Of a stretch of 31,438 nt of DNA, positions 5,022-31,438 are shown piece after piece. The notes beneath the pieces were generated by a model, which was given only the letters and a program-made list of their open reading frames with translations, was not told the DNA's origin and searched no databases. This stretch comes from a virus: positions 1 through 31,438 of the IMG/VR virus record IMGVR_UViG_3300041402_000899. One strand, written 5' to 3'. How positions within the stretch are numbered: the stretch's first letter is position 1; the number at the start of each line of letters is the position of its first letter. The position numbers and the translations under genes were made by a program.

Positions 5022-5033
5022 AGGAGATTTATA

Positions 5034-5291
5034 ATGCCTAATCCAGCTATAATTACATGCACAAAAGACACTTGGACAAAAGTTGCAACTAATGTAGCTA
5101 CAGGGGCTATTTATCAACTCACAGTCGGGAAATGCTTTCAAACATATAGGTTGACCGGAGATACGGCCCCTACAAATTTACTAGAAGGTGTAGATTTAAT
5201 TACTCCGGTAGACACTATCCAGGCATCCGCTGGCATTGACGTATATATTTACAGCAAGGGCGCAGATAGGAAAGTGAGGGTGGACACATGA
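5034..5291 (+). CDS. Small unknown beta-rich protein, possible virion component
   Basis: This 85-residue protein has no recognised family. It is rich in beta-forming residues (TWTKVATNVATGAIYQLTVG, then YRLTGDTAP and IDVYIYSKGADRKVRVDT), which suggests a single small beta-sandwich or barrel domain of the kind seen in capsid or spike accessories. A strong AAGGAG ribosome binding site precedes the ATG. It is the first of three tightly linked unknown genes between portal and protease. The last codon overlaps the next ATG (ATGA), so it is translationally coupled to the 190-residue protein. Confidence 0.7.
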   Translation: MPNPAIITCTKDTWTKVATNVATGAIYQLTVGKCFQTYRLTGDTAPTNLLEGVDLITPVDTIQASAGIDVYIYSKGADRKVRVDT

Positions 5292-5860
5292 TCGGCAATG
5301 ACCCGACCGGCACAAGCAAGCTTGACAATGCTGCAACTGATGGTTTGCTTGGTACTCCTGATAGTCTAGCTTATCGTGTCCATGAAATTGAGCGTCATTT
5401 ACACAATCAAGAGAAATGGTTTGGCCTGGCTGGTGTCCCTTCTGGCGAAACACACGTTGCTGATCGTATGGCCGGTGGTATCGCCCCATTTCAATTAGTT
5501 GCTGGTGTTGATGATTTTGGCGCATGGGTGCAAATCTTAGGTTCTGACGATACCCCGGTAATTGCCGGTAATGTGAAAATTGATGGTCATAGATTCATGG
5601 TGATTGATACAAATTCAACAAACCCTTTTATTGTCCAATTTGTGGTAGGTGAGTCTTCGGAAATTGCGGCAAAAATTGCGGCTGAAGAATTTACAGAGGC
5701 ACCGTATATTTCTGCAACAAACAATAACGATTCCGGTATTTCTGATATTATGTCTAGGCGAGCTGATGCGGGATCAAAGGTATGGGCTAGATGTGCATGC
5801 ATTGGTAGTAGTGGTAGCCTGTTTGATTTCTATTTCGGAATACATGAGTATGAGGGTTAA
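5288..5860 (+). CDS. Unknown protein in portal-protease gap, possible virion component
   Basis: The 190-residue product is not recognised. An N-terminal helical segment (about residues 25-45, YRVHEIERHLHNQEKWFGLAG) precedes a beta-rich domain from about residue 65 onward with FGAWVQILGSDDTP, a FMVIDTNS strand and the terminal LFDFYFGIHEYEG. A short helix leading into a beta domain resembles the anchor-plus-head design of capsid fibres or decoration proteins. That is inference. GGGTGG precedes the start and the gene shares ATGA with its upstream neighbour. It lies three bases from the next gene. Confidence 0.7.
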   Translation: MIGNDPTGTSKLDNAATDGLLGTPDSLAYRVHEIERHLHNQEKWFGLAGVPSGETHVADRMAGGIAPFQLVAGVDDFGAWVQILGSDDTPVIAGNVKIDGHRFMVIDTNSTNPFIVQFVVGESSEIAAKIAAEEFTEAPYISATNNNDSGISDIMSRRADAGSKVWARCACIGSSGSLFDFYFGIHEYEG

Positions 5861-5863
5861 TAT

Positions 5864-6400
5864 ATGATTGGTGCAGGTTCACCGATAAATCAATTTGGTG
5901 CAATACCATTCATGACTCTTTCTAATGCAAAAGTTATGGAGGGTATTGCGTTTTCCATGAGAAAGCGTTTTGCCATTGCTAAAAGCACATCAATTGACAT
6001 AGTATTGGACCCAACAGCATTTACAGGCAAAGCATGGGTGGTATTACCAATTGCTTTTGAGGCTATTGCTGGGCCGATATTGGTTGATATTTATTCAGGG
6101 GTAACGGCTAATAATGACGGAACGCTAGTGTCTATGTTTAATCGTAATCTTGTTATTGGGACACCACCAGTGGCCATAGCAAGACTAGATCCAACTAATG
6201 TTATTCTTCCTGGGACCCCACCGATTGAATATTTAATTCCAAGTGATGGGCAGGGTGCCACAGTTCAGGCCGGTACTGGTGGTGATTCCTTGGTGGCTAA
6301 TGTAGATTTTTCAAAAAAACTACTCGTAAGATTTACAAACAGCGATACGGTATCTGATGCTGTTGTCGGTGTAAAAGTTGACTTTTTTGAGGTTCAATAA
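5864..6400 (+). CDS. Unknown beta-rich protein before prohead protease
   Basis: This 178-residue protein has no recognised family. It appears to be all-beta, with alternating hydrophobic strands (WVVLPIAFEAIAGPILVDIYSG at about residues 59-80, and LLVRFTNSDT and VGVKVDFFEVQ near the end). There are no membrane segments or signal peptide. GAGGG lies upstream of the ATG, and the stop overlaps the protease ATG by one base (TAATG). Together with the two preceding genes it forms a three-gene insertion into the standard portal-protease order. An outer-capsid accessory is the simplest guess. Confidence 0.7.
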   Translation: MIGAGSPINQFGAIPFMTLSNAKVMEGIAFSMRKRFAIAKSTSIDIVLDPTAFTGKAWVVLPIAFEAIAGPILVDIYSGVTANNDGTLVSMFNRNLVIGTPPVAIARLDPTNVILPGTPPIEYLIPSDGQGATVQAGTGGDSLVANVDFSKKLLVRFTNSDTVSDAVVGVKVDFFEVQ

Positions 6401-7494
6401 TGGCTAAAAAAATAATTATACGCGGTTTTATTGGTATCAGCGAAAATGCCACACCTCAATTCTTAGAAAAAGAGTTGTTATCGGCTAATGGTGGCGAAAT
6501 TGATCTTGAATTTTCATCAGGTGGCGGATTCGTTTTCCCTGGTTTGGAAATGGCAAATATGGTCAAGAATTACTCAGGTAAAATTGTTGCCAAAATAACT
6601 GGTCTTGCTGCATCAATGTCTAGTTATATTCCGATGATGGCCGATGAAGTAATTGCTGAAGATAATGCCGTTTTTATGATACATAATGTGTCTGGATTCT
6701 CTTTTGGTGATTTCAGGGAAGCAGCGAAGGTTGCAAAACACTTAGAATCTCTTCGTGATGTTCTGGCCAAAGCATATGTTGCGAAAACAGGGAAATCTAT
6801 TGCTGAGGTTCAAGGACTGATGGACGATGAGTCATTTTTTTATGGTGATGAAATCGTTGATGACGGATTTGCAGATAAAATGGTTGAGGCGAAGAGTGGT
6901 GATGATAATGATAAAGATACCGCTGTTGCTTTGGCTCAAGCTGAAATAAAAGAGTGTGCTGCTCAAATGAAATCAAGCAGCATTAATATTAGTGAAGATT
7001 TTGAACGGGCTGTAGCCTATCATGATGAAATTGGTTTTGAATCGGCAAATAGTGCCGACCAAAATAAATCCCCCGCTTCAGCGGGAAAACCCCCACAGGA
7101 GGCCATTATTATGAATTTGAAAGAACTTTTGGCCGCGAATCCCGAAGCAAAGGCCGAACATGATGCATTGATTATTAATGCAAAAAATGAAGCAAGAGCA
7201 GAAGGGGAAGCGGCTGGGAAAGAGACAATGAAAGCGGCGTTTACCGCGGCAATTCCGATTTTGTCAAGTGACAGTTATCCGGAATCAGTTAAAAAACGAG
7301 TCAGCGCGAAGGCGGAGGCCGGTGATGTTGAGGGTCTTGCGGATTTCGTGGCATTGCACGACATGAACACCGAGCAGGCCAATGGCGAAGAAGCAGGAGG
7401 GGAAGAAGGTGATGAAACTCTACCGGACGCCAATGCTGATTCCCAGTCTAATTTTGACAGCAAAAAGCAGCGTTTGTCTGCAATGGGGGCATAG
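6400..7494 (+). CDS. ClpP-type prohead protease fused to scaffold domain
   Basis: The product is a capsid maturation protease of the lambda gpC / S49-ClpP fold group. It cleaves head proteins and is then lost with the scaffold. The N-terminal half (about residues 1-165) is a ClpP-like domain. The nucleophile is probably Ser72 in GLAASMSSY, and the histidine is probably His95 in MIHNVSG. The stretch SFFYGDEIVDDGFADKM matches the family's closing segment. The C-terminal region from residue 238 is a helical, alanine- and glutamate-rich scaffold that can also be made alone from an internal start. The whole protein is 364 residues, shorter than lambda gpC. It is translationally coupled to the preceding gene (TAATG). 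Confidence 0.9.
   Translation: MAKKIIIRGFIGISENATPQFLEKELLSANGGEIDLEFSSGGGFVFPGLEMANMVKNYSGKIVAKITGLAASMSSYIPMMADEVIAEDNAVFMIHNVSGFSFGDFREAAKVAKHLESLRDVLAKAYVAKTGKSIAEVQGLMDDESFFYGDEIVDDGFADKMVEAKSGDDNDKDTAVALAQAEIKECAAQMKSSSINISEDFERAVAYHDEIGFESANSADQNKSPASAGKPPQEAIIMNLKELLAANPEAKAEHDALIINAKNEARAEGEAAGKETMKAAFTAAIPILSSDSYPESVKKRVSAKAEAGDVEGLADFVALHDMNTEQANGEEAGGEEGDETLPDANADSQSNFDSKKQRLSAMGA
7072..7085 (+). promoter_or_regulatory. Hairpin just before the nested scaffold RBS
   Basis: CCCGC (7072-7076) and GCGGG (7081-7085) form a 5-base-pair GC stem with a TTCA loop, ending 11 bases before the AGGAGG at 7097. No T tract follows, so it is not a terminator. It could keep the internal ribosome binding site exposed or modulate ribosomes translating the protease frame. 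Functional meaning is inferred from placement only. Confidence 0.35.
7111..7494 (+). CDS. Nested in-frame scaffold protein (Nu3-like)
   Basis: An AGGAGG (7097-7102) sits 8 bases before ATG 7111, which is in frame with the protease at its Met238. This start gives a separate 127-residue protein identical to the protease C-terminus. It begins MNLKELLAANPEAKAEHDAL, is strongly helical and acidic, and contains a glycine-glutamate-rich stretch (EEAGGEEGDE) before the tail. Lambda makes its scaffold Nu3 from inside gene C in the same way, so the arrangement is expected for this head type. The RBS is stronger than that of the full-length protease, fitting a scaffold made in excess. Confidence 0.75.
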   Translation: MNLKELLAANPEAKAEHDALIINAKNEARAEGEAAGKETMKAAFTAAIPILSSDSYPESVKKRVSAKAEAGDVEGLADFVALHDMNTEQANGEEAGGEEGDETLPDANADSQSNFDSKKQRLSAMGA

Positions 7495-7497
7495 GTC

Positions 7498-8238
7498 ATG
7501 GGAGTACAAGCACGATTAAACATTGATACCACTGGATTTGTCATTTATGAATATCCAGCATCACGCCATGATGACGGAGTTATTGAACAGGACGCAGGCC
7601 GATCGGCAATTCTGGCTCAATATACATTGATGGGAAAAAAAGCAGTCACTATCCCAACAACTGGCACAGTGACCGGAACTGGTAATGGAACATGTACCGC
7701 AGTAGCCGCAGCGCTTGGAGCCGTGCCGATTGTCGGTGATTGGATTCTTACCAATACCCTGGCTGTTGCCGAAGGCGGCGTGTGGAGTCTCACAGACCCT
7801 AATGGCAATGTCGTAGCAACCGAGTTGGCCATGACTGCTGGTTCTGGCCTGGCAACTGTTTTTGTGGCTGGCGGAATGACCTTCACTCTCACCGATGGCG
7901 GAACTGATTTTGCCTTGGCCGATATTTTCACTATCGCCGTTGCGGCAAATGGAAAAACAGTACCATTTGATGTCACTGCCGTTGATGGGTCACAAAACCC
8001 TGACAGTATTTATATGGGTGACGATATTACAGCAGCCGACCTGGTCGCCGGTGATGTTGTTGATACCCCTCTCGTTTACGAGGGTATGAAGTTTGATGAA
8101 GACAAGTTGATTTTTGATGACGGAACAACCACACTTGACACTCTCATGGCTACCGGCAAAACTATCAGGGAAGCGCTTACACTTGTTACCCTTATTCCAC
8201 AGAAAACAGACAGCGGCTCTGCTTACGAGAACGCATAG
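7498..8238 (+). CDS. Head decoration protein (gpD-like) with insert domain
   Basis: Decoration proteins of the lambda gpD family sit on capsid three-folds and stabilise the expanded head. The product is 246 residues, against about 110 for lambda gpD. The N-terminal part (DDGVIEQDAGRSAILAQYTLM, about residues 21-45) and C-terminal part (GMKFDEDKLIFDDGTTTLD, near 197-215) resemble the family core. Between them is an extra region of roughly 100 residues rich in Gly, Thr and Ala. It contains GVWSLTDPNGNVVATELAM and GMTFTLTDGGTDF and looks like a separate beta domain. Position between scaffold and major capsid gene supports the call. The gene follows the protease stop by three bases. Confidence 0.75.
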   Translation: MGVQARLNIDTTGFVIYEYPASRHDDGVIEQDAGRSAILAQYTLMGKKAVTIPTTGTVTGTGNGTCTAVAAALGAVPIVGDWILTNTLAVAEGGVWSLTDPNGNVVATELAMTAGSGLATVFVAGGMTFTLTDGGTDFALADIFTIAVAANGKTVPFDVTAVDGSQNPDSIYMGDDITAADLVAGDVVDTPLVYEGMKFDEDKLIFDDGTTTLDTLMATGKTIREALTLVTLIPQKTDSGSAYENA

Positions 8239-19198: not shown

Positions 19199-20383
19199 AT
19201 GCCTTTAACAATCCCTACAACTCAACAGTTAAAAGACAATAATCTTGCTAATCTTGAAGGCCAATTGGGGCAAACCTCCCCTCTTGCCGACAAGGCATTT
19301 CTCAGGGTTTTAGCAGCAATGGAAGCATTGCAGGCAACTGGCCATTATAAATATGCTACCGAAAGATCATTGCAAAATCTTGCATTAACTGCGACTGGCA
19401 CAGACCTTGATAAGTTGGGCTCTGAAATTGGTATTATCCGGAAGCCAGGCGAGGCTGCAATATTAACCATCTCGTTACCTGCCATTACCGGCACAGTTAT
19501 TCCGGCTGGAGTTGACTATATTGGTGATTCTAATGGGGTGAGATATTTCCCCGCGTCTTCTGTTGTTGCTGCCGCCGGTGTGGCAATTTCTACCGTTACC
19601 GCTGAAATAATTGGCGTTAATGGTAATTTGCTTGTTGGCGATACAATGTCTATCAGTTCGCAAGTCCCAGGGGCTGAAACGGTAGCTACCGTAACCGTGA
19701 TTGATAACATTGGTGCTGAGACAGAAACAGATGAGGCATACCGTCAAAGGGTATTATTTGGACTCAGGACCACGAAAGGTGGTGGTAATGCCACAGATCA
19801 TAAAAAATGGGCAGAGGAGGTGGCTGGTGTTTTTAAGGCCTTTCCGTATGCGGGTAAACCAATTGACCCACCTTTAACAGATTATCCTTCCGACAGAACT
19901 GTCTATATTGAAGCTGATACGACTATTGACGCTGACGGTATAGCGCCGGGATCACTGCTTGATGAAGTTAGAGACTCAATTAATACCGATCCAGTCACCT
20001 TACTATCACGGCCAGGTCTTGGTTTTACCGACTCAACCCTGTTTGTTGAATCAATTATCCGTACTGCTTTTATTGTAACCATAACAAATCTAGTTGTTGA
20101 TGCAGCCAAAGAAGCAGATACAAAAACAGCAATATCCCTTGCCCTCGATACATACTTCAGAGCCATTGCCCCATTTCTAACCGGCATTGACCTTGAGCAA
20201 GAAAGAAACGATTTTATCACAAATCTAACCGTGTCCGAAGTTGTCCAAGATATATTAAGTGCCAATGGTGCATCTGGCGAAGATGTATCTTTTGCTGTCA
20301 GCACAGCGCCAGGGACACCACTTGCAAATTATCGTCTTGATCCTGGCGAATTGTCAAAACTTGATAGTGTAGTTTATGTCTAA
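19199..20383 (+). CDS. Baseplate J-like wedge protein, Mu gp47 family
   Basis: This is a main wedge protein of the baseplate rim, of the gpJ/gp47 family. It has 394 residues, near Mu's 360. N-terminal helices contain FLRVLAAMEALQATGHYKYA and a segment TGTDLDKLGSEIGIIRKPGEAA (about residues 63-85). Next comes a beta region typical of the family (AIVTVSLPAITG-like repeats and GAETVATVTVIDNIGAETETDEAYRQRVL around 155-185) and a KGGGNATDHKKWAEEV segment. The C-terminal helical domain ends QDILSANGASGEDVSF. Translation is coupled by a 3-base gap upstream and an 8-base overlap downstream. Confidence 0.9.
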   Translation: MPLTIPTTQQLKDNNLANLEGQLGQTSPLADKAFLRVLAAMEALQATGHYKYATERSLQNLALTATGTDLDKLGSEIGIIRKPGEAAILTISLPAITGTVIPAGVDYIGDSNGVRYFPASSVVAAAGVAISTVTAEIIGVNGNLLVGDTMSISSQVPGAETVATVTVIDNIGAETETDEAYRQRVLFGLRTTKGGGNATDHKKWAEEVAGVFKAFPYAGKPIDPPLTDYPSDRTVYIEADTTIDADGIAPGSLLDEVRDSINTDPVTLLSRPGLGFTDSTLFVESIIRTAFIVTITNLVVDAAKEADTKTAISLALDTYFRAIAPFLTGIDLEQERNDFITNLTVSEVVQDILSANGASGEDVSFAVSTAPGTPLANYRLDPGELSKLDSVVYV

Positions 20384-21131
20384 TATCTCAAGAGCCATAA
20401 TTGATGCGTTATTGCCTAAAGGTTCTTTATGGATCCCTGAATTGGGAGCAGACTTTGATTTGCTGCTGGATGGAATTGCTGATAATGAAGAAGCGACAAG
20501 GGTGTTTCTTGAGAAGCTTGCCACTATCAGAGACCCATTAAACACTTTTATCCTTGATGATCTTGAGAAAGAATTTGGCATAGTAACTGATACTTCGGTT
20601 GCAGAAGCAGACAGGCGTGCCAGACTTCTTGCTGCCAAAACTGATAGGGTTGGTGATGGAACAGATGACTTTTTGCAAAGTAAATTGCAAGACGCTGGGT
20701 TTGATGTTTTTGTTTATGAAAATGAGCCTCTTATTGATCCAAGGATATTTTTAAATCCAACATATCAAACATATTTTCTGGGGCACAATGCTTATATGGG
20801 ATGGCCTACTTCATTTATGCGGTTAAATGATGCCTTATTGATAGCAAATGGTTTAACTCTTGATGTAGATTTCCCCAAAACTATACCGGCTGATCCTGGA
20901 TACTGGCCGCTTATATTTTTTATTGGTGGCCCTGCAACATTTAGCACTGCTGTATTGCCCGCCGGTTCCAGCATATTGCCCGCCGGTTCCAGCATATTAC
21001 CAGCCAGTGGAGAATTATTAACCATTGAAGATGCTGTAATTCCAGAAGGACGCAGGGAAGAATTAGTGAGATTAATTGTTAAATATAAGCCGATCAGAAC
21101 ATGGGCGATTTTAAGAGCACGATATACATAA
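20376..21131 (+). CDS. Baseplate wedge protein, Mu gp48 (YmfQ-like) family
   Basis: This second wedge protein follows gp47 in Mu and bridges the baseplate to the fibres. Family features are ALLPKGSLWIPELGADFDLLLDG-type N-terminus (about residues 11-33), RVFLEKLATIRDPLNTFILDDLEKEFG, AEADRRARLLAAKTDRVGDG and the terminal RLIVKYKPIRTWAILRARY. The product is 251 residues against about 190 for Mu gp48. The extra length includes residues about 190-212, where VLPAGSS is repeated (see the tandem repeat entry) in a linker-like insert. The stop is 9 bases from the fibre gene ATG, with AAGGTG between. Confidence 0.88.
   Translation: MSNISRAIIDALLPKGSLWIPELGADFDLLLDGIADNEEATRVFLEKLATIRDPLNTFILDDLEKEFGIVTDTSVAEADRRARLLAAKTDRVGDGTDDFLQSKLQDAGFDVFVYENEPLIDPRIFLNPTYQTYFLGHNAYMGWPTSFMRLNDALLIANGLTLDVDFPKTIPADPGYWPLIFFIGGPATFSTAVLPAGSSILPAGSSILPASGELLTIEDAVIPEGRREELVRLIVKYKPIRTWAILRARYT
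20953..21000 (+). repeat. Perfect 21-base tandem duplication inside gp48 gene
   Basis: Positions 20953-20973 and 20974-20994 are identical 21-base copies, followed by a degraded third copy beginning TATTAC. They encode the repeat LPAGSSI and keep the frame. Zero divergence between the copies implies a recent slippage or duplication event. Copy number could vary between related phages, lengthening a surface loop. Confidence 0.85.
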
Positions 21132-21140
21132 GGTGAAAAA

Positions 21141-22625
21141 ATGGCAATACGACCTATAGACAAATACGGTGCTTTGGCAGAACCAGCCGATGCTGATTAC
21201 CCGGAAGGGTCTTTTAAAAATGCATCTTCTCCAACTGCAGAAGACGGTTCCCCGCTTGAGAAAGCATGGGCAAATGATATTTATGGATTGCTGCAAAAAA
21301 TTATTAATGCCGCTGATATAACCCCGTCAGGTGTGTCTGATACAGTGCTTGCATCTGATTATTATAACGGGCTACAAAGGATTTTTTCTGGAACCACTGT
21401 TTTTATTGATTCAGGTGGTGCGAATGATTACGAATTGATAAGTGCCACCGGCGCATTTATAACAAGTTATGTAAAAGATCAAGTTATACTTTTTAAAGCT
21501 ACCAATACAAATACAGGGTCATCAACTGTTGAAATTGATGCCCTTGGCGCAACACCGATAACCAATCCAGATGGCACTGATTTGACCGCCAGTGACATCT
21601 TGGATGGGGAATACATATTGCTAGTTAGAAATGACGCAAGTTCTCGTTTTGAATTAATACAATTAGGAGGTGGGCCAGTGATTAAACCCCCCAAATACTC
21701 GACAGAGTTTAATTATGGAGCAGATAATAGTGGCTGGCTGGATGATGTGACATTTGGTAGAAGCCCACATTTACGTGGTCGCACTGTGCCAATATCTGAC
21801 ACTGACCACATTGTGATGAGATTTGATGCTGTATCTATGGCTAGGGCCAGGAAATCTGATGGTTTAGCGTCATGGACCACACTTTATAGCAATATCGTTG
21901 TTGACGCAGCAAAAACGATCCAGCTAATATCAGCTTTTTATTACGACAGTGTTGATGATTTAATTTATTGTGTTGGAAGAGATACGGGGGCAGATTTAGC
22001 GTTCTTTTCTATTGATCCGGCCACTGGCGCATCACTATTTTATCATGAAATTTTGTCCAGTGTTTCAGGGGTTGGCATATACCAAATGATGCTTGATAGG
22101 GTCGGTGGGATTGAGGGTACAGGGGATTTCTTGTTTACTTATAAAACGGATGACTCAGACGATGACACACAATTCTTGAGATTTGACATATCATCTGTAA
22201 CAGACAGCGGAAGTCTCGAAACAACTGACGCTTTCAGTCCCGGTTCGGTCATGTATTACACTGCCGATCGTAAAACTATTGTCACAGGTCTCATTGTCGA
22301 TCAGGCGAATGATAATAACAGTTTTGTGTTTTTATATGTCCGGCGTGGCGGTAATGATCGTTGTATCAGGATTCCATTAGAATACAGTATGGTCGGCGGG
22401 GTAATGGATATATTTATTGACGATACCCGAGACCAGGAGGCTTCTTTTGATTTGTGGGCTGGTGATGTGGCGATTACAACCGCTGATAATAGTACGTCAA
22501 TCTTTTCGGTAAGTAATAAGTGGGGCACCAGCACTGTATATTTTAACCGCACTGATTTAGACAGGTGGATAAATGAATGGTGTGATCATGAGCGTATGAA
22601 TCCTGGCGTTGCCTGGACATTATAA
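21141..22625 (+). CDS. Tail fibre protein with possible propeller-like C-terminus
   Basis: The 494-residue product carries a tail-fibre N-terminal segment (residues about 8-90: YPEGSFKNASSPTAEDGSPL, EKAWANDIYGLLQKII and SDTVLASDYYNGLQRIF) that is typical of proteins attaching to Mu-like baseplates. A second beta domain runs to about 178. The C-terminal 310 residues contain repeated aromatic and aspartate-rich strand motifs (YYDSVDDLIYCVGRDTGADL, FFSIDPATGASLF) reminiscent of beta-propeller blades, which suits a receptor- or glycan-binding head. It has no signal peptide, unlike the fibre genes 2.6 kb downstream. Receptor binding is inferred. Confidence 0.75.
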   Translation: MAIRPIDKYGALAEPADADYPEGSFKNASSPTAEDGSPLEKAWANDIYGLLQKIINAADITPSGVSDTVLASDYYNGLQRIFSGTTVFIDSGGANDYELISATGAFITSYVKDQVILFKATNTNTGSSTVEIDALGATPITNPDGTDLTASDILDGEYILLVRNDASSRFELIQLGGGPVIKPPKYSTEFNYGADNSGWLDDVTFGRSPHLRGRTVPISDTDHIVMRFDAVSMARARKSDGLASWTTLYSNIVVDAAKTIQLISAFYYDSVDDLIYCVGRDTGADLAFFSIDPATGASLFYHEILSSVSGVGIYQMMLDRVGGIEGTGDFLFTYKTDDSDDDTQFLRFDISSVTDSGSLETTDAFSPGSVMYYTADRKTIVTGLIVDQANDNNSFVFLYVRRGGNDRCIRIPLEYSMVGGVMDIFIDDTRDQEASFDLWAGDVAITTADNSTSIFSVSNKWGTSTVYFNRTDLDRWINEWCDHERMNPGVAWTL

Positions 22626-22638
22626 GGAGACTCAGAAA

Positions 22639-23145
22639 ATGAAAATAGTTGAATTACTTTTACCATCTGGAATAATCGACTGGGCACAATTTGACCCATT
22701 ACATACAGATGATAAGCCGTTGTTTGGGGAGATTGTCGGGGTCAAGTCGGACGGAAAATCACTAGTGCAATACAGAGGCGCGCGAACTGATTTAAATGAA
22801 CCAGCTCCTTTACCACATTTTACCGTAACCGATATTACATCCACAGCGGTCATCAAATGGGATAATGTAAAACATACTATAACTGCACGTTATGACACTG
22901 AGCTTGCTATCGTTGGAGACATCGCATTGCCTGATGGTGAATATTTAGCACCTATTATTGACCCTAATGGAAAAACACAGGTTATCTCTGTTGATGTCAC
23001 CGGTGGTGTAATTGATGCTGAATTAAATTTGCCAGTGTCAGGGCGATGGGAAATTCCTGCTAAAATAACTCTTGATACCGGTGATAAAATCACAACCGAT
23101 AATCCAGTTTTCAATGTGACAGTTAGTAAAATTAAGAAAAAATAG
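22639..23145 (+). CDS. Unknown fibre-accessory protein
   Basis: The start at 22639 is chosen because AAGGAG (22624-22629) lies 9 bases upstream. An earlier in-frame ATG lies inside the fibre gene. The product is 168 residues and begins MKIVELLLPSGIIDWAQFDP. It has a second half built of beta strands (VKHTITARYDTELAIVG and GRWEIPAKITLDTGDKI) that resemble an immunoglobulin-like domain, and ends KIKKK. No family is recognised. Position right after a tail fibre suggests a fibre-assembly or virion-surface protein. Confidence 0.6.
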   Translation: MKIVELLLPSGIIDWAQFDPLHTDDKPLFGEIVGVKSDGKSLVQYRGARTDLNEPAPLPHFTVTDITSTAVIKWDNVKHTITARYDTELAIVGDIALPDGEYLAPIIDPNGKTQVISVDVTGGVIDAELNLPVSGRWEIPAKITLDTGDKITTDNPVFNVTVSKIKKK

Positions 23146-23153
23146 GTGTTATT

Positions 23154-23762
23154 ATGTCACTTGGAACCATAATTTGCCCATCTATTGTACCGTATTGCCT
23201 GTGTGATGGCTGCAAGATAACTCTTGGCCGGAATAATTCATTTCGTTTCACATTATTAAACAAAGAAATAAAAGTTGATACTGCAGATGTAACAAAAGTA
23301 TGGGCATATATCTCTGATACTGAAAAATACAATTCAGCTGATAACCCCACCTTCTTTGAATTTCCCAAAAATGCTGATATTATTTTAAAACTCGGTAAGT
23401 CAGGCATGTCCAGTGGGGAAAAAGAAATTGAAATTATATTAATTGACCCGGACAATCCCGACGGTGTTAACTTTGGTACAATAAATTGCACCGCTGTGGA
23501 AGGCGTTGATATTACCGGTGGAGGTACAACAATCGTGCAAAAATTCCCATTGTCTTTTGAAAATTCTGATCTTGATGACGGTGTAACAACCTGGATACTG
23601 TCGGTGCCTCATAACCTTGGTAACGAATTTCCTGCTGTAATCGTTTATGATGAAAACGGAAATGAAACAGATATTCCAAATCACTCAGTCGATGAAAACA
23701 ATCTTACAATGAATTTCGCCGGGCCGATTACCGGCACGTATAACCTCCTCGCGGTTGGGTAA
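23154..23762 (+). CDS. Unknown virion-associated protein with Cys cluster and C-terminal beta module
   Basis: The 202-residue product begins with a cysteine cluster, Cys8-x6-Cys15-x-Cys17-x2-Cys20 (CPSIVPYCLCDGC), that might bind metal. It ends with a module of about 50 residues (NLGNEFPAVIVYDENGNET...ITGTYNLLAVG). The same module ends the 108-residue protein at 29487-29813. The module pattern is widespread at the ends of phage fibre proteins. No signal peptide is present. It sits between the cytosolic fibre pair and the exported fibre cassette. Function is unknown, but a structural or fibre-adaptor role is likely. Confidence 0.6.
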   Translation: MSLGTIICPSIVPYCLCDGCKITLGRNNSFRFTLLNKEIKVDTADVTKVWAYISDTEKYNSADNPTFFEFPKNADIILKLGKSGMSSGEKEIEIILIDPDNPDGVNFGTINCTAVEGVDITGGGTTIVQKFPLSFENSDLDDGVTTWILSVPHNLGNEFPAVIVYDENGNETDIPNHSVDENNLTMNFAGPITGTYNLLAVG

Positions 23763-23773
23763 GGAAAAAAAAT

Positions 23774-26700
23774 ATGAAAAAACTATTATTTGCATCTTTA
23801 ATTGTTCTGCTAAGTGCTCAACTTGCGGGTGCCCAGGGTAAGGAATTTCGCGGCGATGTCGTTATTGAATTTGGTGATCTTGAGATTGCTACTTCTGGTA
23901 AAAAGATCATCGCGGATACCATTGAGGGTAAAACTGACCCAGACAGCGGCGAAATTTACGGGGTTACATTCACGGACGGGAAGTCTGATTCCACATCTGA
24001 TGACCCTTATGATGAAGGGACTTGGAATGGCGACCAAGATGCCGCCACAAAAAACGCTATACGGGATAAAATAGAAACTCTTGCCGGTGGCCACGATCCT
24101 GTAACACTGGGTACACAGAATGGATTATCTCTATCAGCCCAGGAATTATCGTTATCCGCTGCCACAAATTCCGCACCGGGCGCGGCCACTGCTGCCCAGA
24201 TAACCAAACTTGAGGGTGTTGCCACGGGGGCTACAGCAAATAGCCCTGATGCCACTTTACTTAATCGTGCAAACCATACCGGTACTCAGGCTACATCTAC
24301 AATATCTGATTTTGATTCCAGCGTGTCTGCCAATTCGGATGTAGCAGCAAACACTGCAGCAAGTCATGCAGAATCGCACACCGTTACAAGTCATTCAGAT
24401 GTTACAGCTAAATCTGGGGATTCCACGGTGCTGGGGACTACATCGGGATCTTTTACTCCCGGTAATTGTATTGAATCTGACGCAAATGGAAATCATATTG
24501 ATTCCGGCGGGGTTTGCGGTGGCGGGGGAGGTGCTGTTGATTCTGTTACCGGATCTACGTTCATAGACTCTTCCCCCACAACTGGTAGTGTCATTGTAAG
24601 TTTATCTGCGACAGGCACACCCAGTGCTGCTACTTTCTTACGTGGAGATAATACTTGGGCAGTACCGGCAGGATCGGGAGATGTCACAAAAGTAGGCACG
24701 CCGGTTAATGACCAAGTAGGCGTATGGACAGGTGATGGGACTATTGAGGGTGACTCTACACTCACGTATAGTGGTACAACTCTATTCACTCCTAATGTGC
24801 GCGCAACAGGTTCGGTGATTGGTGAGGATCTTGGATTATTAAACGGTGCTTTGGAGTCTGTTACTCTGGCAATGGATAGTGGGACAACCGCCTCTTATAC
24901 GACTTCATTTCCACCAGCTGCACCAGCATCTAATGGGATGATAAGAACATACGACACGGATAATAGTTCTCAGTTTGTCGATTCAATAACTATATCCACA
25001 ATAGATGTCAGCGGTACTTTAAAAGTTGATACGATTGAAGGGTATACTGCTGCTAACGACGGCACTGCTTACGGGGTTCCGTTTACCGATGGGGCTATTG
25101 ATAGTGCTGATGTGAATTATACGGCTGCTGGGGCTGGGGCTGTTGAGAGGACGGTTTATGAGAAATTAGGAGACAAGCAAATCTCTATTCTTGATTTCGG
25201 AGCAGATATAAACGGAACAGAGTATAGCGGTAGCATCACAGCAACACAAGATACCGTAACATTAACAAGCGGCGGTGCTGATTGGGCTGTAGGAGATCAT
25301 GTGTCTATTGCTGATGCGGGCAAAGCAGAAACTACCTGTACAGTGTCTAGTGATTCACTTGTGCTTACAGCTGTTGCCGACCCAACAATTTTTTCTGTTG
25401 GGGATATTACCAGACTTGTTGATGGCGTAATTGCTGTTGCACAAGAGCGAACTATGACTATTGAAGTTGTTGGTGGTATTGGTGAAGTATTCACGATAGA
25501 GTTGATGTCACCTGACATGGAGACATTTGAGTATTTCACCTATACCGTCCAAGGCGGTGATACCACGACAGATGTAGCCGCTGGGCTAGAGACTGCCTCA
25601 GCGGGAGCCACATTAGCAACAATAACAAGTAGTGGTGCTGTTGTAACAATGATAGCAACCACCGCAGGGACACCTTTTTATTATGAGAATGTTTACCCTG
25701 TAAAGCGGGGATTAGTCACTTATGTGATGACTCAACCTAATGTCCCTTTGCAGCATTTCTTGGCAGAAATTACAGCATGCACCGACACAACACCAGCGGA
25801 TAGCTTTTGTGATAGTGGGTCAGATATTACCCTAGAGACACAGGTGGTTGGTATCAAGGCTATGTTTGTATATCCAACAAACACTGGATCTGGAAAAGTC
25901 CTCCAGCATCTTAATAATAGGTTACTAACAACTATTACTGACATAAATGGGGATGTGCTAACACTTAACGATTCGGCAATAACAACTGTATCTGGTGTGC
26001 GTGTAGTTAAAAATGCTCAACCGTCTTTTGAGGCAGCAGTTGCCCAAGCCACAATTGAGAATAAAACCGTTTATGCTCCACCAGGAGAATACTGGATGAT
26101 GTCAAATCCTGCTTCTTTGGGACTCTGTACGGACATGGATGAAGTTGGTATTCTCGGTGCTGGGGTTGGTAAGACAATCTTTAAGACTGTCCCTCGAAAC
26201 TGTGACATGTTTCGGTGGTATGACGCAACAGACGGAGTTGATGATATTGAGGTTGCCCAGTTTACAGTAGAAGTTGATGATATATCATCACGAAGACGAC
26301 TTGACTATGATACGACGTTTTGGTTCGGCTACATAAGCAGTAAACAACCGAACGAGAATATTGAAATACATCATGTCGAAGTGGTTAATGCTGGATACTT
26401 TGCTATTAGGTTATACAACCCTGTCAATGTCAATATCCATCACAATATTATTAACAATGTAGCTGCTGGTATTGATGTTGAAGGGTATTTCACATCTATT
26501 GGGAATAGAGATGCCATTCCGTCCTATGGGCCGCTTAATGTTTCTGATAATACAATCAACAATGTATCTTGGTCTGGAATAAATGTGAAAGGTTTATCTA
26601 ATGGGAATGGTGGGACAACTGTTACTGGTTATGCCAAACATAAAAATGTAGTTATTAGTTCTAATAACATATCACATGCTTATTTATTTGCGATTGAAAT

Positions 26701-28906
26701 ATATGGAAATGAAACCAACGCTGCCATCACTGGCAATAATATGGAGTACGCAGGGCAATACAGTATTTTTGGAGATTCTGAGGCACATGGTGGTATTGTC
26801 ACAAAGATGTCATCTAATGTTAGTGTGACAGGTAATAATGCTCGGCATTGCTGGGTTGGCATAGAAGTTATAGGTGTAGCAGATGATGAAGACCTAACCG
26901 AAGTAACAGACGAAAGATTTGTTGTCCAGCCACACGGAATAACAGTTACAGGTAACACAGCATACGGTATGGGATATAAAGGCATTTCTTCCTTTGCCGG
27001 AGTGAAAGGTTTGATTATCAAAGGAAATGTTATTGAGATAGGCCCACAGGGAATCGGCATAAATGGGTCAACAACTATAGGCGGCACTTTTCAAGAGGAA
27101 GTTTTTGTCCCGACTATTACAGACAATACGATTACTAAAACAGGTCTAGGGTTAGTTTTAGACACGCTTGTTTATCGGGGAATAGTTAAAGACAATACAT
27201 TCATCAATAACAATTATAAAGAAGTGGAATATGTTGATTCAATAGTGGAATGGTTTGGGGCTATAAGGCTTGGCGGTAACGATACTAAAAGGTCAACTGC
27301 TCCGGTTATAGAGAGTAATATATTTATTGATAACAGGGTTGATGCTACATATAACCAGAACCTTGTTGTTATATACTATACTGATGATGCGATTATTCAA
27401 GGTAATCAATGGTTTGGTGAAACTCCGAATAATATAGTAGTTAACCTGACAACTGAGGATACCACAGAACAAGGCAACTCATGGGACGCCGAAGGGTTAT
27501 GGGGGTTGGATGCATTAGTTATAGCACATAGTGAACTAAGCCTGGACGATGGTACTAATCCTCATGGAACTACGGCAAGTGATGTGGGTAATGATACAGC
27601 TCAATGGGATGCAGATAAAATACAAGGAGTAACTGTTGACGATACTGATAAAGCCGATGGAAAGATTCTTCAATTTAATTCTACATCAGGAAATTTAGAA
27701 TATGAATCATTGGCAGCAGGACATACCCAAAACACGGACACAGGGACATCCTCAGATGATTTCGCAATAGGTGATGGCACAGACACAGATAAAACCATCA
27801 CAGCAGCTAATGGAGATGGGAACGAACCTCTGTTAAAATATGATTCAGCAGTAAATAAATGGCAATATTCAAATGATGGAACTACCTTTAATGATATTGG
27901 CTCAGGATCATTTGATCCAAATGGTGTTTCTGGTGGTCAGTCCGTAACAGGTGGAACGGATGCTGGTGACAATCTGGATTTAGAGTCAACGAGTGATGGA
28001 ACCAAAGGCAATCTTACCTTTGGTTCTAGTGTTTATGATGAAGTAAATGATAGACTAGGTATTAATGAAACGGCACCCGATTCAGCAATACATGTTTTCG
28101 GAGATCAACCGGAAATCAGAGTTCAAGACGATGCTGATGTAAGTGCATATTTCTCTTTTGGCGCTCTATCTCAAACGATAGGTGTTTTTAAATTTGTTGC
28201 CCCAGGTGGTGGCATATCACAGATGGACTTTGAGCCTACCCTAATTGGTGGAACCGGTAGTTCTGTCTTACGGTTATTCAGAAATACAATTGCAGATGCT
28301 GTTTCTTTTCAAATATACGCGGGTAATGGTAATAACAGGCAACATTATTTAAGAGGAGATGGCACATCATACCTTTCCGAAAAGTATGGTGATCTTGGTA
28401 TCGGAGCACTTACCACTCCAACAGCTCAGGTGATGATTACTGCAAGAACTAACGAAGGGCTGGCTATTCGTGGTGACGATGTAAATGAAATTCTCGAAGG
28501 GTACGCAGCAGACGGCACAACCAAACTTTTTCAGTTTGCAGAAGATGGAGCACTATCAGCCAAAGCAGAAGAGGTAACCAAAGCTGCAACAGGTGATATG
28601 ACTTCATTAGAGTTTAGTGGTACATTTAGTAATAACTATGGGCAGAGTGCTTTGGCTCTAATTTCACTAGACCCTCTTACCGGTGGTGAAAATGGTTGCT
28701 TTGAGACATCTACAGTAGGCAATCAGATATCAATTGAAACAGACAGCGAAGCTATCTGGCTAGATGGAGTCGATACTGTAACTGATACTTTGGTTAACGC
28801 TACTCCTACAATGGGTGATGAGATTTGTTGCAAGACAGGCCGAGACGGATCAAATAACTTATACCTTAAATGCAAAACTGCATGGGGTTCAGGGTGGGCT
28901 TTCTAA
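23774..28906 (+). CDS. Giant tailspike-like beta-helix protein with Sec signal peptide
   Basis: The 1710-residue product starts MKKLLFASLIVLLSAQLAGA followed by QG: a Lys-Lys n-region, a hydrophobic core and an AGA cleavage site, a textbook Sec signal peptide that virion fibres normally lack. Fibre-type motifs follow (NHTGTQ near residue 168, FLRGDNTWA near 290). Residues about 470-480 (ISILDFGADING) are the tailspike pectate-lyase-like opening, and a right-handed beta-helix rich in NN and GN turns spans about 790-1235. Neck repeats (DADKIQGVTVDD, YDEVNDRLGINETAP) come next, and a Cys-bearing C-terminal knob with NGCFETS occupies about 1639-1710. Twelve cysteines fit an oxidising compartment. 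Probably an exported surface depolymerase or adhesin; no catalytic residues can be assigned. AAGGA RBS. Confidence 0.8.
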   Translation: MKKLLFASLIVLLSAQLAGAQGKEFRGDVVIEFGDLEIATSGKKIIADTIEGKTDPDSGEIYGVTFTDGKSDSTSDDPYDEGTWNGDQDAATKNAIRDKIETLAGGHDPVTLGTQNGLSLSAQELSLSAATNSAPGAATAAQITKLEGVATGATANSPDATLLNRANHTGTQATSTISDFDSSVSANSDVAANTAASHAESHTVTSHSDVTAKSGDSTVLGTTSGSFTPGNCIESDANGNHIDSGGVCGGGGGAVDSVTGSTFIDSSPTTGSVIVSLSATGTPSAATFLRGDNTWAVPAGSGDVTKVGTPVNDQVGVWTGDGTIEGDSTLTYSGTTLFTPNVRATGSVIGEDLGLLNGALESVTLAMDSGTTASYTTSFPPAAPASNGMIRTYDTDNSSQFVDSITISTIDVSGTLKVDTIEGYTAANDGTAYGVPFTDGAIDSADVNYTAAGAGAVERTVYEKLGDKQISILDFGADINGTEYSGSITATQDTVTLTSGGADWAVGDHVSIADAGKAETTCTVSSDSLVLTAVADPTIFSVGDITRLVDGVIAVAQERTMTIEVVGGIGEVFTIELMSPDMETFEYFTYTVQGGDTTTDVAAGLETASAGATLATITSSGAVVTMIATTAGTPFYYENVYPVKRGLVTYVMTQPNVPLQHFLAEITACTDTTPADSFCDSGSDITLETQVVGIKAMFVYPTNTGSGKVLQHLNNRLLTTITDINGDVLTLNDSAITTVSGVRVVKNAQPSFEAAVAQATIENKTVYAPPGEYWMMSNPASLGLCTDMDEVGILGAGVGKTIFKTVPRNCDMFRWYDATDGVDDIEVAQFTVEVDDISSRRRLDYDTTFWFGYISSKQPNENIEIHHVEVVNAGYFAIRLYNPVNVNIHHNIINNVAAGIDVEGYFTSIGNRDAIPSYGPLNVSDNTINNVSWSGINVKGLSNGNGGTTVTGYAKHKNVVISSNNISHAYLFAIEIYGNETNAAITGNNMEYAGQYSIFGDSEAHGGIVTKMSSNVSVTGNNARHCWVGIEVIGVADDEDLTEVTDERFVVQPHGITVTGNTAYGMGYKGISSFAGVKGLIIKGNVIEIGPQGIGINGSTTIGGTFQEEVFVPTITDNTITKTGLGLVLDTLVYRGIVKDNTFINNNYKEVEYVDSIVEWFGAIRLGGNDTKRSTAPVIESNIFIDNRVDATYNQNLVVIYYTDDAIIQGNQWFGETPNNIVVNLTTEDTTEQGNSWDAEGLWGLDALVIAHSELSLDDGTNPHGTTASDVGNDTAQWDADKIQGVTVDDTDKADGKILQFNSTSGNLEYESLAAGHTQNTDTGTSSDDFAIGDGTDTDKTITAANGDGNEPLLKYDSAVNKWQYSNDGTTFNDIGSGSFDPNGVSGGQSVTGGTDAGDNLDLESTSDGTKGNLTFGSSVYDEVNDRLGINETAPDSAIHVFGDQPEIRVQDDADVSAYFSFGALSQTIGVFKFVAPGGGISQMDFEPTLIGGTGSSVLRLFRNTIADAVSFQIYAGNGNNRQHYLRGDGTSYLSEKYGDLGIGALTTPTAQVMITARTNEGLAIRGDDVNEILEGYAADGTTKLFQFAEDGALSAKAEEVTKAATGDMTSLEFSGTFSNNYGQSALALISLDPLTGGENGCFETSTVGNQISIETDSEAIWLDGVDTVTDTLVNATPTMGDEICCKTGRDGSNNLYLKCKTAWGSGWAF

Positions 28907-29448
28907 TGAAAACAATACTAATAACAATCCTGGTCCATTTAATGTGGGTTGGGCAAACCTTTGCATTACCAGTAGTTATGCCACAGTGGTATTGTGGTGA
29001 GGGTTTCACTTGCGACACATGCTCCGTAGAAGATTCACAAAATAGCGAATCTTCGGCCATAAGTCTCGACTGGGCTAGAGGCGATACAATCACTATAAGT
29101 GACGCGGGCAGACTGTGTTCTATAACTGTCTACCTGTCTGGCACGTTAACAGATACCGAAGTGCAGATTGCAACGGGGACAGCGGGAGTGAGTGTGATAG
29201 AGGAGATTGCTAAAGCGTCAGGAGCTTTATCGCAGGGAGAAAACGAATTTCTATCCGTGGCACACCCATACTTACCGGCCGGTACTTATAAAATAAAAGC
29301 CATGTCCGCATCTAGCACAACAGGTATCGCCAGAAATTTCGTAGGTGGTGGAGGTGGGTTTCTGTCTGCGACTGAGGCAGATAGTTGGGATGTTTACGTT
29401 GCCGATACAGATTATGCCTTACGTTATGTTATTAAAATGTGTGATTAA
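28906..29448 (+). CDS. Secreted small jelly-roll-like protein
   Basis: The start at 28906 overlaps the preceding stop by one base (TAATG). An earlier in-frame ATG lies within the upstream gene. The 180-residue precursor begins with a signal peptide (MKTILITILVHLMWVGQTFA, cleavage before LP). The mature N-terminus is Cys-rich (WYCGEGFTCDTC). The rest is a beta domain with DTITISDAGRLCSITVYLSG and PAGTYKIKA, a pattern seen in carbohydrate-binding-like jelly rolls of surface proteins. Five cysteines are in the mature part. A weaker relative of this domain ends the 452-residue protein at 29813. Binding to a surface polymer is inferred. Confidence 0.7.
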   Translation: MKTILITILVHLMWVGQTFALPVVMPQWYCGEGFTCDTCSVEDSQNSESSAISLDWARGDTITISDAGRLCSITVYLSGTLTDTEVQIATGTAGVSVIEEIAKASGALSQGENEFLSVAHPYLPAGTYKIKAMSASSTTGIARNFVGGGGGFLSATEADSWDVYVADTDYALRYVIKMCD

Positions 29449-29486
29449 AGCTAAGGCACAACCGTCGTAGTAAACAAGGAGAACAG

Positions 29487-29813
29487 ATGGCATTTGAAGA
29501 AGAAAAACCAACACCGCCGATAGGTGCAGGGCAACAGTTCGATGCGCTATACAGCATGGTGAACGCTCTTGTCACTGCTGTTTTTGATGAGCTTGCTGGA
29601 CCAGCGTTTAAGTTAGAGTTTGATAGTAACCATGCTGACTTTACCGGAAATATCCTGACAGTTGATCATGGACTAGGAAGACGACCTGGCGGTATTGTTA
29701 TTACGGATAGTTCCGGGCAAGTTATTTTTGTCCCAGCAACAACCACAACAACTCAAATTGTAATTGATTTTGATTCAGCGATTACAGGCACATGGCATTT
29801 GGTGGCGGTATAA
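29487..29813 (+). CDS. Small cytosolic protein with shared fibre C-terminal module
   Basis: This 108-residue protein has a good AAGGAG RBS (29476-29481) and no signal peptide, so it is the exception within the exported cassette. An N-terminal helix (PIGAGQQFDALYSMVNALVTAVFDELAG, about residues 16-43 in two parts) precedes a C-terminal beta module (HGLGRRPGGIVITDSSG and DSAITGTWHLVAV). The same module ends the protein at 23154-23762. The helix-plus-module layout suggests a small trimerising fibre tip or adaptor. It is coupled to the next gene by TAATG. Function is unknown. Confidence 0.6.
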   Translation: MAFEEEKPTPPIGAGQQFDALYSMVNALVTAVFDELAGPAFKLEFDSNHADFTGNILTVDHGLGRRPGGIVITDSSGQVIFVPATTTTTQIVIDFDSAITGTWHLVAV

Positions 29814-31171
29814 TGAAAAACTTACTCTTAACAATTTTGGCTTTTTCGTTGATGACCTGTATAGCCCATGCGGGTAACTCTTATCATCGTGGAAATTGGA
29901 ATGTCAGTGGTGCGGTAACATCAGAGGCCGGTGAATTGGTTGGCACACAGACGGCTCTTGATTTAAAGGCAGACGACGCAGATCTATCAACCCACACAGG
30001 CAACACAAGCGACCCACACAGCGTTACGGCTGCTCAAGTAGGCCTGGGGTCAGCGAATGACACCAGTGACACAGATAAGCCGATTTCCGATGACACCCAG
30101 ACGGCTCTTGACTTAAAAGCCGATGCAGCCGATGTAAGCAACATTGATAATACTTCTGACGATGCAAAACCGGTGTCAACGGCACAGCAAACGGCTCTTG
30201 ATCTGAAAGCCGACATCTTAAATGTGCTGGAATTGGACAACGCCGGATCCTTTACCCCTGATGCTGATTATGAACCAGCTACCAAGAAATATGTTGATGA
30301 CAATGCTGGTTCTGGAACACCGGCCACTTTCCCCCACATAACCGGCGATCAAGATATCACCATTTTTAACAGAACATTCCATTACTTCGATGGCGCATAT
30401 ACTGCGACCATGGACCCGGTGGCCTCGTTCCCCAGTGCCGGCGTAAATTCAAATGGGTGCTTTACCAATAGTGCCGGAGATAATATAATTAAAGTATGTG
30501 CTGATGGTGATGACTATATCTCACTTGATGGTGAGATAGGCAATGATGGAGAATGTATCACAACGCCCACAAAAGGTGCATCAGTATGTATGGGTTACCT
30601 AGGCACTGAGGGTTGGTATGCTTGGGCATCTGTGGGGTGGACATCTGTGTCAAGTGGAACTTACACTTATTATGGGTTCCCAACGGTAGCAGGAGATCCT
30701 ACAGGGCAAGAGATAGGAACTATTCAACCTTATGGGGCCAACACTCCAGGCGATGACCGAGTTTATACTACTAAAGACACGATAACAGCAGATTGTATTG
30801 CTTATGCTATAAACATCTATCTCCACACAATACCTACAAGTAGCGAGTTGTACGCCTGTCTATATAAAGACACAACTCTTATCGGTAAAGTAGATATTAG
30901 CGGAGAAACTACACCTACAGCCTGGACAGGGTATAACCAATTAATTGTAGAAGGCGGCGAATCTTTATCATTAGTTACTACTGATGATGTTTATATTGGT
31001 GGCTGTATTGGGGGTACAAGTACTGCCGAGTACTTTGGAGAAGACGATGGCAGCGCAGAAGATCTTCACTTTGATGATACTTCTTGGACAAGTGGACCTA
31101 TATCTCCAGCTACTTGGTCTGTCAGTGGAACTGCTAACGGCCTAGCTGCGGTGTTGCAATGCGAAAACTAA
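29813..31171 (+). CDS. Secreted fibre-like protein with repeats and Cys-rich C-terminal domains
   Basis: The start at 29813 overlaps the previous stop (TAATG). The 452-residue precursor begins MKNLLLTILAFSLMTCIAHA followed by GN, a canonical signal peptide with an AHA cleavage site. Residues about 45-140 hold three copies of the tail-fibre repeat QTALDLKAD (start nucleotides about 29948, 30098 and 30188). A Cys-containing knob follows (NGCFTNS to WYAWASVGW, about 217-285) that matches the C-terminus of the 1710-residue protein. A final beta domain (ADCIAYAINIYLHTIP and SSELYACLYKDTTLIGKV) resembles the 180-residue neighbour. There are eight cysteines in the mature part. It is a fibre-type protein destined for the periplasm or cell surface. 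Confidence 0.7.
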   Translation: MKNLLLTILAFSLMTCIAHAGNSYHRGNWNVSGAVTSEAGELVGTQTALDLKADDADLSTHTGNTSDPHSVTAAQVGLGSANDTSDTDKPISDDTQTALDLKADAADVSNIDNTSDDAKPVSTAQQTALDLKADILNVLELDNAGSFTPDADYEPATKKYVDDNAGSGTPATFPHITGDQDITIFNRTFHYFDGAYTATMDPVASFPSAGVNSNGCFTNSAGDNIIKVCADGDDYISLDGEIGNDGECITTPTKGASVCMGYLGTEGWYAWASVGWTSVSSGTYTYYGFPTVAGDPTGQEIGTIQPYGANTPGDDRVYTTKDTITADCIAYAINIYLHTIPTSSELYACLYKDTTLIGKVDISGETTPTAWTGYNQLIVEGGESLSLVTTDDVYIGGCIGGTSTAEYFGEDDGSAEDLHFDDTSWTSGPISPATWSVSGTANGLAAVLQCEN

Positions 31172-31438
31172 TACTAACAGTAGGCTTGTTCTTGGCAACA
31201 GCCACTCCGGTACATGCCCTTGACTTTATCCCTGGCCTAAAAGGATTTGGTACTGACACAAGAGGGCCTTTTGGACTTGGTTACGATCCAGATATTTGCA
31301 TCGTAACAAGTACAGGCATTACTGGTGGTTCTCCAGGGGATAGCACGAGAAACGGAGTTAGTGTTAAAATTGGAACCTTGCAGCAATGTGTTGAATATGC
31401 TCCAGCGGCAGACACCGGTAAAATTATTCTTTTTGAAA
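31159..31438 (+). CDS. Pectate-lyase-like secreted protein, 5' part only
   Basis: ATG 31159 overlaps the preceding gene by 13 bases. The visible 93 residues begin with a signal peptide (MRKLILTVGLFLATATPVHA, cleavage before LD). The mature start FIPGLKGFGTDTRGPFGLG, a VTSTGITGGSPGDSTRNGVSV-like stretch and KIILFE closely follow the opening of polysaccharide-lyase-1/pectate-lyase-type beta-helix proteins (GAxGFGxxTxGG...VTxLxDxGPGSLR...IVF). The usual SLR motif is replaced by VKIGTLQQCVE. The rest lies beyond the window, so catalytic residues cannot be judged. It is the fourth exported product of the run. Confidence 0.65.
   Translation, partial: MRKLILTVGLFLATATPVHALDFIPGLKGFGTDTRGPFGLGYDPDICIVTSTGITGGSPGDSTRNGVSVKIGTLQQCVEYAPAADTGKIILFE

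Follow-up and report, generated by a model that had tools for sequence, protein, structure and literature searches.

Why should the last genes of a phage tail-fibre locus open with signal peptides for Sec export, when tailed-phage assembly is taught as being wholly cytoplasmic until lysis? The locus belongs to an uncultured phage, and the window (the whole stretch of DNA that was analysed) comprises the entire IMG/VR record IMGVR_UViG_3300041402_000899, 31,438 bases in length, linear and possibly a fragment. Its gene content is that of a single myovirus late region and runs through terminase, portal, head protease, capsid, sheath, tape measure, baseplate hub, baseplate J and Gp48-like genes to the fibre locus, which comes last. 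Sheath and baseplate J match those of cultured Shewanella, Vibrio, Oceanospirillum, Acinetobacter, Flavobacterium and Cellulophaga myoviruses at about 25–34% identity, that is, as distant relatives only. Downstream of the baseplate J and Gp48-like genes, hence in the tail-fibre slot, a leaderless fibre and two further leaderless proteins are followed by the leadered set (Table 1). The latter of these two proteins begins MSLGTIICPSIVPYCLCDGCK, a dense cysteine cluster that is unusual among the leaderless virion proteins of this phage.

Table 1. Genes of the tail module and fibre locus and the predicted Sec leaders, with positions in the window.
Feature	Position	Strand	Details
Baseplate J protein, tail-module marker	19199..20383	+	Pfam Baseplate_J, E=1e-30
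Mu Gp48-like baseplate protein	20376..21131	+	phrog_4920, phrog_203
Leaderless proximal fibre/adaptor-type protein, 494 aa	21141..22625	+	phrog_26525 tail fiber protein, E=3e-19
Leaderless fibre-locus protein	22639..23145	+	phrog_31598
Leaderless fibre-locus protein, N-terminal Cys cluster	23154..23762	+	phrog_21918
Leadered tailspike/fibre, 1710 aa	23774..28906	+	Fibre modules, right-handed beta-helix, Cys-containing C-terminal domain
Predicted Sec leader 1	23774..23833	+	MKKLLFASLIVLLSAQLAGA, then QG; motif AGA; score 11.0; 0/2000 shuffles
Leadered small Cys-rich protein, 180 aa	28906..29448	+	5 Cys in mature part
Predicted Sec leader 2	28906..28965	+	MKTILITILVHLMWVGQTFA, then LP; motif TFA; score 8.2; 1/2000 shuffles
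Leaderless fibre-distal-domain-like protein, between second and third leadered genes	29487..29813	+	
Leadered fibre, 452 aa	29813..31171	+	QTALDLKAD repeats, TKKYVDDN module, Cys-rich C-terminal part
Predicted Sec leader 3	29813..29872	+	MKNLLLTILAFSLMTCIAHA, then GN; motif AHA; score 9.3; 1/2000 shuffles
Leadered protein, cut by contig end, 93-aa fragment	31159..31438	+	
Predicted Sec leader 4	31159..31218	+	MRKLILTVGLFLATATPVHA, then LD; motif VHA; score 10.2; 0/2000 shuffles

Leaders were called with a home-made scorer that evaluates n-region charge, core hydrophobicity and the −3/−1 rule, and on which seven textbook E. coli leaders reach 7.0–11.2. The initial annotation held that four genes open with Sec-type leaders ending in small-x-Ala motifs and that the chance of artefact is low, and both statements withstood scrutiny: the four leaders score 8.2–11.0, each with a charged n-region, a hydrophobic core and a small-x-Ala site at residue 20, and permuting residues 2–40 of each leader 2000 times, with a count of the permutations reaching the observed score, gave at most one. 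The core rule of the scorer was relaxed to permit His (under the stricter rule the leader of the 28906 gene was rejected, afterwards it scored 8.2), and cut-offs ranged from 6.5 to 8.3 across analyses. Leaders are found in four of the last five genes of the window versus none of the 28 others (32 genes scored), against a background in genes of relatives of 16/1227 (1.3%) at a cut-off of 8.2. At least four leadered genes among the last five would have a probability of 1.4e-7 if genes were independent; leaders cluster, so that this figure is a guide only. That the four leaders arose by copying of a single one was considered and rejected, the leader DNA being identical at 24–33 of 60 positions with no sign of recent duplication. 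Leaderless starts near the mature N-termini were likewise rejected, as none has a good Shine-Dalgarno sequence; among the four leadered genes themselves a clear one (AAGGA) is present only ahead of 23774. The genes had been described as a tight, mostly overlapping row, which holds for the TAATG overlaps in which 28906 and 29813 begin and for the 13-bp overlap of 31159 with the preceding gene, and fails where the leaderless gene 29487–29813 intervenes.

The proteins behind these leaders are in part plainly fibre proteins. The NHTGTQ and FLRGDNTWA modules and the QTALDLKAD repeats reported earlier were all found, and fibre modules or a tailspike beta-helix are confirmed for the 23774 and 29813 proteins, with the right-handed beta-helix at residues 921–1101 of the former (Pfam Beta_helix, E=1e-6). 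The 29813 protein has 20 PHROG matches, tail fiber phrog_35419 included, and shares a module with leadered proteins of five other viral loci or genomes (G001, L002, L010, L018 and L033); in a search of viral_contigs its matches were mostly short fibre modules such as TKKYVDD, and the same collection held no direct homologue of the 23774 or 28906 protein. Profile searches gave neither a family match of weight nor a fibre module for the 28906 protein. For the 93-aa fragment at 31159 there was no Pfam, NCBIfam, PDB or fibre-module match, so that its label as pectate-lyase-like, given by eye, is unsupported by these searches. A PDB sequence search returned no match, and single-sequence AlphaFold models (pLDDT 39 for the 28906 protein, 34 for the C-terminus of the 29813 protein) gave no usable fold or disulfide geometry. 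Assignment as defence proteins was rejected, a PADLOC model match being absent. The mature leadered proteins contain 1.15% cysteine versus 0.27% for the other virion genes of the window (p=4e-6), and in the relative G001 the corresponding values are 0.77% and 0.26% (p=0.008), an enrichment that fits folding in an oxidising compartment.

Relatives were sought with the baseplate J protein as query. The nearest with a complete locus, IMGVR_UViG_3300033149_002658 (G001), shares 41–53% identity in core proteins (portal 46%, capsid 41%, baseplate J 53%) and encodes, at the position of the window spike, a 629-aa leadered Beta_helix spike directly after a 177-aa orthologue of the window adaptor fibre. 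Because this orthologue is only 177 aa long, receptor binding at that position would most obviously fall to the leadered spike; a search for homologues of the spike returned the spike alone. Two more leadered proteins lie between portal and protease in G001, one with the TKKYVDD fibre module and a similarity to a phage cement protein too weak to reach the Pfam cut-off, the other carrying a Laminin_G_3 lectin domain. The head protease is of a different type in the same gene slot of the two genomes, S49/phrog_53 in G001 (L092, 7486–8823) and phrog_94 in the window (6400–7494), a swap between otherwise related phages. The 5.8-kb contig L095, with an equally similar baseplate J, has no leadered gene on the tail-gene strand; at about 4527–5681 on its minus strand a 384-aa lipoprotein-like ORF (MKQLFFLLIIALTLFACPNPADEPW...) adjoins the fibre genes in opposite orientation. 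No leadered fibres were found in the less similar L096–L098 and more than 60 further loci, in which a few matches resemble spanin or membrane segments. Since G001 is leadered and these loci are not, the trait is sporadic within the group, and leaders as a general family trait were rejected. Relatives such as Shewanella SppYZU01 and Vibrio 1.086.O share with the window the slot after baseplate J and Gp48-like genes, the adaptor N-terminus and the fibre modules, but their fibres are leaderless. A related phage contig of 16.6 kb (L354, G012 contig C131; 52% identity in baseplate J, 48% in portal) sits in a Desulfobacteraceae MAG bin, possibly by wrong binning, and ends inside the first fibre gene, so that any leadered genes would be missing from it. 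The MAG also encodes a DsbA-family protein.

Fibres are normally leaderless, as the initial annotation assumed, and in that background leaders have in places been grafted with precision. Of 68 viral loci with the tail-protein family that starts M(A/G/S)-VPNTTTF, 64 encode a plainly leaderless member. In two related contigs (L286 and L320) a leader is fused to a member of this family as MKSRLLIILLIVGLNVFA followed by Q-VPNTTTF, and in L002, where the scorer missed the leader and it was assigned by eye, as MKKIIFILLFNIAAFS followed by Q-VPDTTTF; the predicted cleavage restores the usual N-terminus within one or two residues. The 19-codon leader of L286 and L320 differs at four nucleotides and at no residue, and later regions of the protein have strongly diverged. 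Because the nucleotide changes are silent while later regions of the protein diverge, this comparison suggests that the leader is under selection. The fibre attachment domain GTN..PIVP..YPTH had a leader in none of the 80 loci fetched, whereas L018 has one just before the domain (...MIQA, then QQISGTQVTSPIVP, where homologues begin MSLIPGTNIAAAVVP). Leaders occur together on adjacent genes in the window, G001, L018, L002 and L286/L320. Further leadered or leader-like genes were seen in passing: two small proteins in a structural gene block of the G003 contig (L363/L364; reverse complement 6132–6584 and 7495–7953), which also has a leadered GTN-domain fibre; three consecutive leader-like starts in L057 (6651–9486), the first with a fibre motif and a weak-looking leader; and, on the viral contig L063 (13605–14264), a collagen-like protein with a leader (MKLLLTLLLMATMALATSLEDHIPQGPKCEQGPVGPQGPQG).

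A precedent in architecture comes from cultured Cellulophaga phages, for which virion status is given by the depositors' database annotation ('based on experimental MS/MS proteomics analysis') and leaders are predicted. Twelve of the 35 checked Cellulophaga phage proteins annotated as MS/MS virion components score as leadered, mostly in runs of three or four genes: phi10:1 gp091-094 (four consecutive genes), phi19:1 gp101-104, phi18:3 gp085-087 and, with the weakest score (6.8), phiSM gp08. As in the window, consecutive leadered genes thus lie in the fibre loci of phi10:1, phi19:1 and phi18:3 (Assiduviridae, Pachyviridae) and of phiSM, which by baseplate J (27%) is distantly related to the window phage. 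In phi10:1 and phiSM the leadered genes follow a small protein without a leader (gp090 and gp07, respectively, both short, MS/MS-annotated and immediately upstream); in the window the leadered run comes after the leaderless adaptor and is interrupted by one leaderless gene. The leadered genes of phiSM lie between portal and protease, as in G001. Next to the MS/MS runs, phi10:1 and phiSM also have leadered 'pectate lyase' genes (that of phiSM with a GDSL lipase domain), which carry no MS/MS annotation themselves. The Cellulophaga phages differ in having Bacteroidota hosts and a virion annotation by MS/MS. No BLASTP match at E<0.01 was obtained between the leadered window proteins and the MS/MS-annotated Cellulophaga proteins, so that these phages serve as architectural precedent and not as a family assignment. 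The leaders are not mentioned in the Cellulophaga phage records or open papers checked, and the term 'signal peptide' is absent from Bartlau et al. 2021 (PMC8776804), PMC13288928 and PMC11946311 on flavobacterial and Cellulophaga phages.

These observations suggest that some tail fibres may undergo maturation beyond the cytoplasm and be added to the virus particle late. Sec export with late addition is the simplest reading, because it accommodates the position in the fibre locus, the fibre modules, the grafted leaders and the MS/MS virion annotations, and for the window we consider it evenly balanced that the cluster consists of distal tail-fibre and tailspike proteins that are exported by Sec, mature in the periplasm and are docked on virions at lysis. 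Leaderless adaptor proteins would assemble onto the tail in the cytoplasm, and the leadered receptor-binding or sugar-processing parts would cross the inner membrane via Sec with cleavage of the leader, fold in the periplasm, probably with disulfides, and attach to virions upon cell lysis; these steps, from export to docking, we infer for the window phage as for the others. A wider proposal, put forward tentatively, is that of an assembly in two compartments, in which Sec-exported distal fibres would trimerise and form disulfides in the periplasm before docking at lysis on leaderless adaptors of virions made in the cytoplasm, the trait having arisen or spread repeatedly, in Bacteroidota phages and at least one other lineage, by grafting of leaders onto whole fibre gene sets. 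Several points count against Sec export and docking in the window phage. To our knowledge no tailed phage adds Sec-exported fibres, docking after lysis must compete with dilution, and most relatives have no leaders. The window proteins lack sequence similarity to the MS/MS-annotated Cellulophaga proteins, the MS/MS detection may in part reflect envelope proteins that co-purified with the particles, and the leaderless 494-aa fibre of the window phage could itself be the receptor binder.

The initial annotation had set maturation in the periplasm beside action in the host envelope. The former has gained indirect backing from the Cellulophaga MS/MS runs and from grafts that spare the tail-protein N-terminus, and the latter still stands, as an unlikely alternative in which exported self-fibres would engage receptors from within the periplasm or the outer membrane, so preventing superinfection or the loss of progeny to cell debris. 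The leaders would be just as real in that case, and the separate leaderless fibre at 21141–22625 could serve the virion; but the leadered window proteins have no lipobox Cys or membrane anchor, the fibre locus of G001 yielded no large receptor-binding protein without a leader, and the leadered Cellulophaga proteins are annotated in virions. Phage-coded superinfection-exclusion lipoproteins that are exported do exist (Llp of T5, Cor of phi80 and N15), and these are small, whereas the window proteins have fibre architecture. Somewhat doubtful, too, and to be rated rather unlikely, is that the leadered beta-helix, lectin and lyase-like proteins are released as depolymerases or lectins, free of the virion, and degrade the capsule or matrix that surrounds the cell. 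In favour of such a role are the Beta_helix domains of the window and of G001, the Laminin_G_3 domain of G001 and the 'pectate lyase' genes of phi10:1 and phiSM outside the MS/MS annotation, yet leadered fibre-module proteins without enzyme domains (the 29813 protein, the TKKYVDD proteins) fit it poorly and the architecture of the gene runs matches that of virion proteins.

That the N-terminal hydrophobic segments are membrane tethers or virion-attachment segments instead of cleaved leaders we regard as highly improbable: leader scoring was by a simple home-made method alone, but the small-x-Ala site at residue 20, the charged n-regions and the near-zero shuffle matches recur in all four, and the grafted leaders stop at, or close to, the usual start of the tail protein. 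The least probable reading is display of fibre-derived adhesins on the host by a prophage in lysogenic conversion, to which the binning of a relative's tail genes with the Desulfobacteraceae MAG would lend some colour; that contig may be free phage, however, the window genes are packed in a late tail operon with overlapping starts, and the window shows neither an integrase nor lysogeny control. Filamentous phages, the pIII and pVIII virion proteins of which carry Sec leaders and mature at the inner membrane and periplasm, are extruded through the envelope and lack a tail, a capsid and a lysis step.

Neither fibres nor Sec leaders are unusual by themselves; their combination as a recurring tailed-phage design is not described in the open literature searched, in which no report of phage fibres with signal peptides was found. 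If fibres are indeed exported and added late, receptor-binding proteins could make use of disulfide bonds and of the wider chemistry of the periplasm, the export and Dsb machinery of the host could bear on host range, and part of assembly would fall at or after lysis. Leaders on fibres offer a simple criterion by which genomes can be mined for such phages, and the cultured Cellulophaga phages give a test system.
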